NCBI GenBank assembly: GCA_018883245.1
Contig: VEQL01000026.1
Location: forward strand, 1-36,839
Length of the DNA stretch: 36,839 nucleotides
DNA from: Chthoniobacterales bacterium
GTDB lineage: Bacteria; Verrucomicrobiota; Verrucomicrobiia; Chthoniobacterales; JACTMZ01
Reading direction: 5' to 3'
In this document: positions 11,390 through 13,989 of the stretch, piece after piece
Numbering within the stretch: position 1 is the stretch's first letter
Layout of the letters: each line of letters opens with the position of its first letter
Position numbers and translations under genes: made by a program
Notes under the pieces: model-generated
Seen by the model: only the letters and a program-made list of their open reading frames with translations
Database searches by the model: none
What the model was told of the DNA's origin: nothing

Positions 11390-12727
11390 GTGACGAGTGA
11401 GTTGTGGCGAGTTGGTGTCTTGGTGGCCGCGGGCTTGCTCGTCTCCTGCGGGCCGTCAAAGTCCCAGCCGGGAAAGGAAACCCAACCCGACAAGAAGACC
11501 GGCAGTGTCATATTCTTCCACATCGACGGTGCCGGCGTGGCGCAATGGCAGATGGCGCGCATGGTCATCGCCGGGCCCGATGGCGAGATCAACTGGGACA
11601 AAATTCCGCACATCGCGGTTTACCGCGGACACCAGGAGAACACGCTCACCACTTCATCGAATGCGGCGGCGACGGCGCATGCTTACGGGGTGAAGGTTCC
11701 CTACGATGCGTTCGGCACGGACGGCAAATCGGATCAACCCCCGCTCGCGCCATCGGGGAAGCGGCTAAGCATCATGCAGGAGGCGAAGGCTCGTGGTTTG
11801 GCTGTCGGGGTGGTGAACAGCGGCAGTGCGGTCGAACCCGGCACGGCGTGTTTTCTCACCAGCGTGCACGCGCGTGCGGATGATGCGGAGATCGTTGCCC
11901 AGCAACTCGCTTCGGGCGCCGATGTCATCCTCGCGGGCGGCGAGGAATGGTATCTGCCGGAGGGTGTGCAGGGCAGGCACTGTCCCGGCAAGCGGAAGGA
12001 CGGCCGCAATCTGATCGAGGAGGCGAAGGTTGCAGGCTATCGCGTGGTGTTCACGCGGGAGGAATTGGCCGCGCTGCCCGACAACGCCGGCAAGGTGCTC
12101 GGTATTTTCGCTTCTCAGGACACCTTCAACGATGAACCCGAGGAGGCGCTCGACGAGAAAAAATTGCCCTCTTACGACCCCCAAGGACCAACGGTTGCGG
12201 AAATGACCAAAGCCGCGCTGCGATTTTTGTCCGGCCGCCAATTTTTTCTCGTGGTCGAGGAGGAGGGCACCGACAACTTCGGCAATTGCAACAATGCGAC
12301 GGGTCTGATCGAGGCGCTCAGGCGCGGCGACGAGGGCTTGGGCGTCGCGCTGGATTTCGTGGAGAAACATCCCGACACGCTTCTTGTCACCTTCGGCGAC
12401 AGCGAAGCGGGAAACCCGGATGTGTTGGGATTGCGCGGCACCAAGGGCGAGGCGGAGATGCTGCGCACGTCGCGGGATGCCAACGGCGCGCCGCTTGATG
12501 GCGCAAAGCGAGCGCCCGAGGGTGGTATTGCCGAACCTTTCACCAGCGCGCCGGACAAGGCCGGACGGAGTCATCAGTTTGTCGTCACGTGGGGTTCCAA
12601 ACTCGACTCAAGTGGCGCGATCCTAGTGCGGGCCGCAGGGTTCAACGCCGACAAAGTCCGTGGATCTTTCGACAACACGGGGCTGTATCCGCTTTTTTAC
12701 GAAACATTGTTCGGGACAACGCCATGA
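11390..12727 (+). CDS. Alkaline-phosphatase-like lipoprotein with altered metal ligands
   Basis: A 445-residue protein with a lipobox LVSC (Cys 20), so anchored in the envelope. It follows the alkaline phosphatase fold: HIDGAG (Asp 46 as a metal ligand), TTSSNAAATAHAYGVK around Ser 90, VVEEEGTDNFGN near residue 295 and SHQFVV with His 395. By hand alignment to E. coli PhoA, the nucleophile Ser is kept, while the Asp before it is Ser and zinc-ligand positions His331 and His370 look like Asn 299 and Ser 338. It may be a phosphodiesterase, a changed phosphatase or catalytically dead. GTG 11390 is supported by GAGGAG six bases upstream. Confidence 0.82.
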   Translation: MTSELWRVGVLVAAGLLVSCGPSKSQPGKETQPDKKTGSVIFFHIDGAGVAQWQMARMVIAGPDGEINWDKIPHIAVYRGHQENTLTTSSNAAATAHAYGVKVPYDAFGTDGKSDQPPLAPSGKRLSIMQEAKARGLAVGVVNSGSAVEPGTACFLTSVHARADDAEIVAQQLASGADVILAGGEEWYLPEGVQGRHCPGKRKDGRNLIEEAKVAGYRVVFTREELAALPDNAGKVLGIFASQDTFNDEPEEALDEKKLPSYDPQGPTVAEMTKAALRFLSGRQFFLVVEEEGTDNFGNCNNATGLIEALRRGDEGLGVALDFVEKHPDTLLVTFGDSEAGNPDVLGLRGTKGEAEMLRTSRDANGAPLDGAKRAPEGGIAEPFTSAPDKAGRSHQFVVTWGSKLDSSGAILVRAAGFNADKVRGSFDNTGLYPLFYETLFGTTP

Positions 12728-12909
12728 CGGCCTACACCGAGGTGGTCTGTCCGACCTGCCACGAAAGCTTCGAGGTTCCCGCGCCGGCCTTGTCGGAGGT
12801 TCCCTGCGAATGGGATTACGACTGCGAAGTCTGCTGCGCGCCGATGCGCATTGTTTTCAGCGCGGACGATGAATTGGTTGTCGCCGAAGCGCGCGGTTTG
12901 GGGGAGTAG
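12724..12909 (+). CDS. CPXCG-type cysteine-rich zinc-ribbon protein
   Basis: A 61-residue protein with two cysteine pairs: CPTC (about residues 9-12) and CEVC followed by C (about residues 38-42), as in the CPXCG family of small zinc-ribbon proteins of unknown function. An acidic, beta-rich end follows. It overlaps the phosphatase stop by 4 bases (ATGA), so it is translationally coupled. The remaining longer open frame upstream is a shadow. Function is not known. Confidence 0.85.
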   Translation: MTAYTEVVCPTCHESFEVPAPALSEVPCEWDYDCEVCCAPMRIVFSADDELVVAEARGLGE

Positions 12910-13250
12910 ATTAGCCGTTCTTAACGCTCGAGGACAGTCGCCAAGCGCAGCAAACTTGGTTGATCCATTTGGTTAGGCATTTTTGACGTGTCGCCGAATC
13001 CAAGATGACCTGCGGCGACAATAGACCACAGCGCGCTCCAGAACGTTTTCCGCGTCGTGCGTTTAGTAGATAGCTAACGGGAAGCGGTTGGATAGCGCGC
13101 GGTGGGAACTGCGATAGGCCTTCGGATGGATGCCGAAGAAGATCTTCAACGCTTCGATATAGGCGTAAAGGCTCGCCAGAAAATAACGACTTCGCTCAGG
13201 CGCGGCTCCGACGAAGGCGGCGACGTCGCGCTGGAGTGCATTGTTGGGTG
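12910..13250. other. Gene-poor stretch with degenerate attC-like boxes
   Basis: No recognisable gene. On the minus strand there are boxes that fit integron core-site patterns: GCCTAAC (12978 to 12972, RYYYAAC), GTTAAGA (12925 to 12919, close to GTTRRRY) and GTTAGCT (13078 to 13072, one mismatch). A minus ORF from 13263 to 13063 reads through the box at 13249, giving a peptide starting MEAVAPNNALQR, which I take as translation of repeat sequence, not a gene. The base composition and lack of coding signature suggest decayed cassettes or intergenic remnants. Confidence 0.45.
13228..13249 (-). repeat. attC-like left half (R''-L'' type)
   Basis: Minus strand: ACCCAAC (13249 to 13243, matching RYYYAAC), then AATGCACTCCAGCGC. 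It begins one base after the stop codon of the cassette-like ORF, the place where an integron cassette's attC starts. I cannot find a good matching right half within the usual 60-140 bases; the nearest box is GTTAGCT at 13078. So it is a half-site or degraded. Confidence 0.45.
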
Positions 13251-13451
13251 CTACTGCTTCCATAGCTGGCCAGACCTCTCAACGATGCAGTGGTAACAAG
13301 CGCTGCTTTTACCGTCTTTGTTATACCAATCATGTTGACCACCAGCGGCCTCGCAGTCCTTCCCCTTCGCAGCGATTCCCAGGTCAATGAGAAGCCACGG
13401 TAAACGGCTGCGGACTTTGGTGCGCCACCGGTAGGGACTCGTTGGTTTCAT
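13251..13451 (-). CDS. Small Cys/His-rich cassette-like protein
   Basis: A 66-residue ORF. The C-terminal half has Cys 33, His 40, Cys 52, His 54 and Cys 55 in the spacing C-x6-H-x11-C-x-H-C, which could bind zinc; the ending ACYHCIVERSGQLWKQ has a compact, conserved look. The N-terminal part is basic (YRWRTKVRSR). I believe similar short proteins occur in environmental sequences but cannot name a family. The start lies 17 bases after an attC-like right box at 13468-13474 and the stop one base before another RYYYAAC box, so it is arranged as an integron gene cassette. Its expression is uncertain. Confidence 0.55.
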   Translation of the reverse strand: MKPTSPYRWRTKVRSRLPWLLIDLGIAAKGKDCEAAGGQHDWYNKDGKSSACYHCIVERSGQLWKQ

Positions 13452-13467
13452 CCTTAGCTTTTATTGC

Positions 13468-13533
13468 ACCCAACAGATAGTATACGACAGCGCGTTAATA
13501 TTGGGTTTTGCTACTGGTCGCATATTGCTGGGC
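13468..13533 (-). repeat. attC-like palindrome, 66 nt
   Basis: Read on the minus strand, the site starts with GCCCAGC (13533 to 13527, one mismatch from RYYYAAC) and ends with GTTGGGT (13474 to 13468, a perfect GTTRRRY). The arms pair imperfectly: CCCAGCA and ATATGCGACCAG on the left match CTGTCGTAT and TGTTGGG on the right, with unpaired bases mainly on one side, as in attC folds. The length is within the known attC range. No integrase gene is present in the window. Confidence 0.5.
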
Positions 13534-13626
13534 AGTTAGGAGCAGTTTTCAGGGTTTGGAGTGTGTCCGTGTGGGGCAATCCTGAACCGTTTTTCTTCCT
13601 GATTTTGGTGTGAATGGGGAGGCAAT

Positions 13627-13658
13627 AAAAAACCCGCGGCGCGGGCCGCGGGTTTTTT
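13627..13658. terminator. Bidirectional intrinsic terminator
   Basis: A perfect 14-bp inverted repeat with a GCGG loop: six A plus CCCGCGGC, then GCCGCGGG plus six T. It can act in both directions. On the minus strand it lies 19 bases after the glutaredoxin stop, and it isolates that gene from the cassette-like region. Confidence 0.92.
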
Positions 13659-13677: not shown

Positions 13678-13989
13678 TCAGGCGACGTGCTGCTTTTTGT
13701 TCTGGCAGGAGGAATTGATCGGCACCTCGACCGGGGCATCACTGCGCGAAATGCGGTCGTTGGCCACGAGCCAATTCTCCAATTCCTCGCCGCTGATGTC
13801 GGGGAGCATGTGCCCGTCGACCACCACGCACGGGGACAACTTTTGTCCGCTGCGCTGTTCCATCTCGGCACGGAACTCGGGGTTTTTCAGGATGTCCTTC
13901 TCTTCGTAGGGCAGATCGTATTTGGCCAGAATGGCGCGGACGCCGTTGCTCCAGCCGCACGTGGTTTTGAGGTAGGCGGTGATTTCCAT
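13678..13989 (-). CDS. Glutaredoxin-like protein with CGWS active site
   Basis: A 103-residue thioredoxin-fold protein. The N-terminus MEITAYLKTTCGWSNG places the active Cys at residue 11, with Ser at the resolving position (14), followed by VRAILAKYDLPYEEKDI. Further on, SPCVVVDGHMLPDISGEELENWL is the usual glutaredoxin cis-Pro/second-helix region. A monothiol-like role in glutathione-dependent reduction or Fe-S handling is plausible. It is downstream of rpsA but separated by a strong terminator, and ends at a bidirectional terminator. Confidence 0.87.
   Translation of the reverse strand: MEITAYLKTTCGWSNGVRAILAKYDLPYEEKDILKNPEFRAEMEQRSGQKLSPCVVVDGHMLPDISGEELENWLVANDRISRSDAPVEVPINSSCQNKKQHVA

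Follow-up and report, generated by a model that had tools for sequence, protein, structure and literature searches.

Results and discussion

The window analysed here is a stretch of 36,839 nt, contig C26 of the genome of a lake Verrucomicrobium (G000; 2.9 Mb in 84 contigs). It contains a 79 bp copy of an integron attachment site (attI) that is followed by two gene cassettes. A profile search found no match to an integron integrase gene (intI) anywhere in the window, in agreement with the initial annotation of this DNA, and a search of the whole genome located the integron integrase on another contig, C33. The feature is read, with a probability of about two in three, as a satellite integron platform: comparison of sequences suggests that intI was lost from an extra copy of the integron and that the remaining attI was loaded in trans by the C33 integrase.

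The attI site and its surroundings

The attI copy is at positions 13469–13547 on the minus strand. The initial annotation had taken a 66 nt palindrome in this region for an attC site; it is rather a copy of an attI of the same genome. In the genome, positions 13547–13469 match C33:1333–1412, directly upstream of intI (BLAST E 8e-15), and the alignment runs up to the G|TT crossover, at which the first cassette of C33 starts. The same 79 bp attI is present beside intI in the related genomes G002 and G003, which are identical to each other over the 74 bases before the crossover. Because this sequence is found beside intI on C33 and in both relatives and ends at the crossover, it represents an attI, and positions 13468–13533 were rejected as an attC. 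The motif GTTGGGT is present at 13474–13468 (minus) as originally noted. The last attI base is G 13474, and the G|TT crossover separates it from 13473, the first base of cassette 1. The copy is 81–83% identical to the intI-linked attI of C33 and to the attI of contig C42, and 84% identical over 79 bp to a consensus for the genus. Few copies are as diverged as that of the window, in which 12 of 74 bases depart from the consensus; four of the 12 are close to the crossover. The attI match comprises 62 of 74 bases at 13547–13474, and the next best place in the window has 34 of 74.

In the window (13523–13469, minus) and in other copies, the crossover is spanned by a short reading frame, which reads MRPVVKPNINELSYTIR in the consensus. 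It could be a leader peptide or could be due to chance; its start codon is missing in the copy G003:C52. A GTT at the left edge of the attI module was considered as a second crossover and is too weak to claim.

On the upstream side the insertion is bounded by the terminator of a glutaredoxin gene (13678–13989, minus; Pfam PF00462). The terminator, at 13627–13658, was identified from its inverted repeat and by a terminator scan, and is also conserved in G006, next to the zinc-ribbon gene. The downstream boundary is a converging CPXCG zinc-ribbon gene (12724–12909, plus; Pfam PF14255), with 15 bases between the end of the array and its stop at 12909. An Rfam scan of the window shows two tRNAs and nothing else. 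No sigma-70-like promoter was found, which counts against the satellite interpretation. The contig starts at a dispersed repeat (positions 1–127), pieces of which recur at 93–98% identity elsewhere in this genome, on C20, C33 and C42.

The two cassettes

Cassette 1 (13190–13473, minus) extends from the attI crossover to the start of homology with a toxin cassette of genome G010. It has a G|TT crossover at each end and consists of an ORF followed by an attC that is weak in place. The 66-residue ORF (13251–13451, minus) has the motif C-GG-H-WYN-DGKSS-CYHC, and its stop is one base ahead of the box ACCCAAC at 13249–13243, as first described. The protein has no Pfam or NCBIfam match and no match in plasmids and viral contigs; among 213 genomes there is one relative, 67% identical, in G080:C66. 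At that locus (L121 1490–2375) the relative adjoins an antitoxin/RelE-type pair and is situated between core genes, with no attC detected there.

The attC of cassette 1 (13184–13249, minus) has ACCCAAC as its R'' box and the G of R' at 13190. In the free circular cassette, R'' and the first bases, TTGGGT, form a complementary box pair. The bottom strand of this free form folds into a hairpin with unpaired bases between the boxes and a delta G of -23.4 kcal/mol (z -3.8, reached by 0 of 200 shuffled sequences). When the site is folded as it occurs in the chromosome, followed by cassette 2, its outer box is disrupted and the z value is -0.7. The covariance-model search proposed in the initial annotation gave a divided result. 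Two models scored the attC of cassette 1 at 11.8 bits (E 0.78) and 13.8 bits (E 0.41), short of significance, and the attC of cassette 2 is strongly significant.

The latter site (12919–12978, minus) is the top hit of covariance model R1, with 45.4 bits and E 4e-10, a model built only from attC sites of other genomes and contigs; in the broader model R2 its E value is 8.7e-4. Cassette 2 itself (12925–13189, minus) is a 3' remnant of a RelE-type toxin gene. It is 75% identical over 264 bp to G010:C1:186512–186775, the end of an antitoxin/RelE-type cassette. The antitoxin of that G010 cassette matches Pfam PF09720; the toxin has no Pfam match and is named RelE-type by appearance and position. 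The homology to G010 sets in with the base that directly follows the crossover. This fits an IntI-type deletion, by which the toxin cassette would have been trimmed between an attachment site and a GTT inside the toxin gene. A reading of the joined flanks (MRPVAKPNINALSYTIC + YFLASLYAY...) as a single gene split by cassette 1 was rejected, since the right part is the end of the RelE-type toxin and the intact G010 form starts differently.

The same locus in related genomes

The initial annotation had named a fixed intergenic position without cassette variation in close relatives as an outcome that would speak against a cassette. The position is indeed fixed; the contents vary. In G006 and G008 the zinc-ribbon and glutaredoxin genes are adjacent with the terminator alone between them, which represents the empty arrangement. 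In G003:C52 (95%) and G005:C71 (94% to the consensus) an attI is beside the same zinc-ribbon gene and is followed by other cassettes, with significant attC sites in both arrays. G010 retains 45 bases, from the start of such an attI, at the same zinc-ribbon gene (G010:C1:21267–21311).

The gene on the attI side in G003, G005 and G010 is a topoisomerase gene, in contrast to the glutaredoxin gene of the window; the glutaredoxin gene of these three genomes is elsewhere. In G010 it lies in two near-identical regions of one draft genome (G010:C5:14005 and G010:C32:121064), which represent a duplication or assembly redundancy. The orthologous attI sites of G003:C52 and G005:C71 are 85% alike, no more than non-orthologous copies, which was also counted against the satellite interpretation. 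From this and the different attI-side gene it follows that the history of the locus includes rearrangement. The attI-side spacers of the window, G003 and G005 are 65–74% similar over 80 bp (shuffled sequences: mean 58%, maximum 65%), and none of the three has a trace of intI.

The shared attI, zinc-ribbon neighbor and intI-free spacer, together with the different cassettes, suggest that intI was probably already missing at this locus before the species separated, and that the cassettes were exchanged later, in trans. That related species have this landing site in the corresponding position, filled with other genes, points to one integrase, encoded elsewhere in the genome, that can serve several such sites.

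intI genes and dispersed attI copies

The integron integrase at C33:1–906 scores 402 bits (cut-off 265); its frame is open and is cut by the contig end. The attI consensus was found at 17 places in seven genomes when 213 genomes of the order were searched. Eight copies have no adjacent intI: those of the window, C20, G003:C52, G005:C71, G005:C36, G002:C14, G010:C23 and G080:C49, the last in a genome of another family. Weaker pieces without adjacent intI are present in G006:C19, G010:C30 and G010:C1. The attI pattern has no match in viral contigs, and in a set of 85k genomes it was found at nine loci only, all in Verrucomicrobia metagenome-assembled genomes (MAGs).

The five stand-alone copies beyond the window locus (C20, G005:C36, G002:C14, G010:C23 and G080:C49) are sharply bounded. 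Identity to the intI-linked site is about 90% inside the module and falls to chance level within about 10–20 bp outside it. attC sites are present in the arrays of G005:C36, G002:C14 and G010:C23, and none were found at C20, G080:C49, G006:C19 and G010:C30. Except for the window and C20, the stand-alone sites are 92–97% identical to the consensus; four-fold sites of neighboring genes agree at 35–63% across the same species (83% for the closest pair, in one gene).

A second intI-attI copy in the host genome, on C42 (L016 8248–10107), appears to represent a decay intermediate. The intI match ends after about 147 residues next to an IS256-type transposase, the attI is intact and the first cassette is different. 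Two further copies with a broken intI, G002:C76 (L054) and G010:C1 (L048), have in common with each other the point of truncation and the neighbors, and their attI is 99–100% identical to the consensus. The truncated intI of these two faces a formylglycine-generating-enzyme-like gene. In G005, G010 and G080, which carry stand-alone attI sites, a complete intI was not found in drafts that are 88–93% complete, so some of the stand-alone copies may be fossils.

The intI DNA of G000:C33 (L013), G002:C23 (L062) and G003:C46 (L063) is 91.5–97.6% identical, and neighboring genes of these species agree at far fewer silent sites. The high identity of intI relative to those silent sites suggests that the intI-attI unit has moved horizontally within the genus.

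Proposed origin of the platform and alternative explanations

Under the satellite interpretation, an extra integron copy would have lost intI, and its attI would have stayed between the glutaredoxin and zinc-ribbon genes. The C33 integrase would recognize the window attI in trans. Circular cassettes released by any array would then enter this site through attI x attC recombination, and could leave it again by excision. We infer both the loss of intI as the origin and the action in trans. The loss is supported by the copies with a broken intI (C42, G002:C76 and G010:C1), and the interpretation as a whole by the empty version of the locus in G006 and G008 and the differently filled versions in G003 and G005, by the attC arrays and the conservation of other stand-alone copies, and by the dispersal of a second, unrelated attI type in G008. 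Loading in trans, at least in the past, is the best reading of these comparisons. The window copy, with its 84% identity to the consensus and a truncated second cassette, looks partly decayed and may now be weak or dead. A wider proposal, that the genus has a distributed integron in which one integrase gene would serve several full-length attI platforms at conserved places, loaded in trans and maintained by selection, is tentative and is given slightly less than an even chance.

It is also conceivable, though rather improbable, that the attI module spreads alone, by an IntI-mediated or other mobile route, and was never accompanied by intI at a new place. The module has an abrupt left edge at loci that are unrelated, and most stand-alone copies have no intI trace upstream; both would fit such a route, but the intermediates with a broken intI show that a route by loss exists, and no target duplication or mobile element was recognized. 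This alternative differs from the satellite interpretation in origin only.

The main rival is a dead relict: a complete integron whose own intI loaded the cassettes and was then deleted, followed by decay with no action in trans. The high divergence of the window attI (84%), the gene fragment in cassette 2 and the decayed intI copies at other loci are all consistent with it. However, the intI-free spacer is common to the window, G003 and G005 and the cassettes differ, so that turnover after the loss of intI would be needed, and stand-alone attI sites of other species are still 92–97% identical to the consensus. A dead relict is considered unlikely.

An off-target insertion of cassettes at a genomic site resembling attG, giving an ordinary cluster of attC sites lacking an integron integrase (CALIN), is a published route (PMC8618304) and would account for cassettes far from intI, but it is very improbable here, since homology of the target to attI over 79 bp excludes a random genomic site and the locus is common to several species.

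The arrangement of box, ORF and box had been the original reason for calling this region an integron cassette. The cassette is real; the boxes by themselves are not beyond chance. The minus strand of the window has 22 GTTRRRY and 17 RYYYAAC boxes, and there are two perfectly complementary box pairs at cassette-like spacing on each strand. It is the attI match and the covariance-model hit of the second attC that take the observation beyond chance, and with the empty and differently filled versions in relatives they leave a chance resemblance around an unrelated ORF hardly any probability, even if box pairs alone do arise by chance.

Relation to known systems

An integron is usually described as one attI beside one intI, and other cassette clusters are read as debris or off-target insertions. 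The window feature resembles a chromosomal integron (an intI-attI-cassette array) in attI sequence, cassette polarity, G|TT crossover and attC sites of the resident kind. It differs in that no intI is adjacent to its attI, the gene being on C33, and the array must be served from elsewhere.

A CALIN is a cluster of attC sites lacking an integron integrase (IntegronFinder, PMC9024848), scored from at least two attC sites with no intI nearby. The window has one strong and one weak attC, intI is absent nearby, and the array is far from intI, so that a standard tool would label it a CALIN or miss it. The proposal of an isolated CALIN-like cassette was correct in that the array has no neighboring integrase; there are two cassettes, however, and unlike a CALIN the array starts with a bona fide attI.

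The attG sites of Loot et al. (2024, Nat Microbiol), as cited in PMC12901181, are described there as strongly divergent from attI and attC. The likeness to that description is in cassettes placed in the genome outside the integron; the difference is that the target in the window is homologous to attI (84% identity over 79 bp) and its locus is fixed. The SGI1 complex class 1 integron (PMC7056807) also has two attI sites with separate cassettes, but both are in one mobile resistance island; the copies described here are scattered along the chromosomes of several species. Delta-attI-type cassettes of mobile integrons (PMC12901181) likewise carry attI pieces away from intI; there attI fragments replace attC inside arrays, in contrast to the full-length attI that starts the array here.

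Trans-mobilized CALINs, attG targets, a second attI in SGI1 and displaced attI fragments are thus already known (PMC12444791, PMC9024848, PMC12901181, PMC7056807). A search of the openly accessible literature found no report of full-length attI sites that occupy conserved loci around a chromosome, each with an array. Both the parts and the reaction have precedents, and what appears to be a new variant is the dispersal of attI platforms at conserved loci. If the interpretation is correct, a specific landing site could be assigned to cassette clusters of this kind, and a genome would offer several expression contexts. Detection of attI by IntegronFinder is limited to class 1 (PMC9024848), so such platforms would pass unnoticed and could be common. 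Platforms of this type may be hidden among the CALINs of other bacteria, unrecognized because attI was not searched for. CALINs at conserved loci have been described in Xanthomonas, with no attI mentioned in the relevant part of that account (PMC12444791); the prediction for such fixed-locus CALINs is a copy of the genome's own attI upstream of the first cassette.

A second attI type

Were dispersal habitual in integrons of this kind, it would be expected for another integrase as well. The intI genes of G008 are only 50–56% identical to that of C33, and their attI is unrelated. This attI type is absent from ten relatives searched and recurs within G008 on contigs C83 (91%), C46 (76%) and C93 (73%) and at two contig ends. 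The stretches read around the copies on C83 and C46 contain no match to intI, and both copies are followed by attC sites. The C93 copy adjoins an intI fragment.
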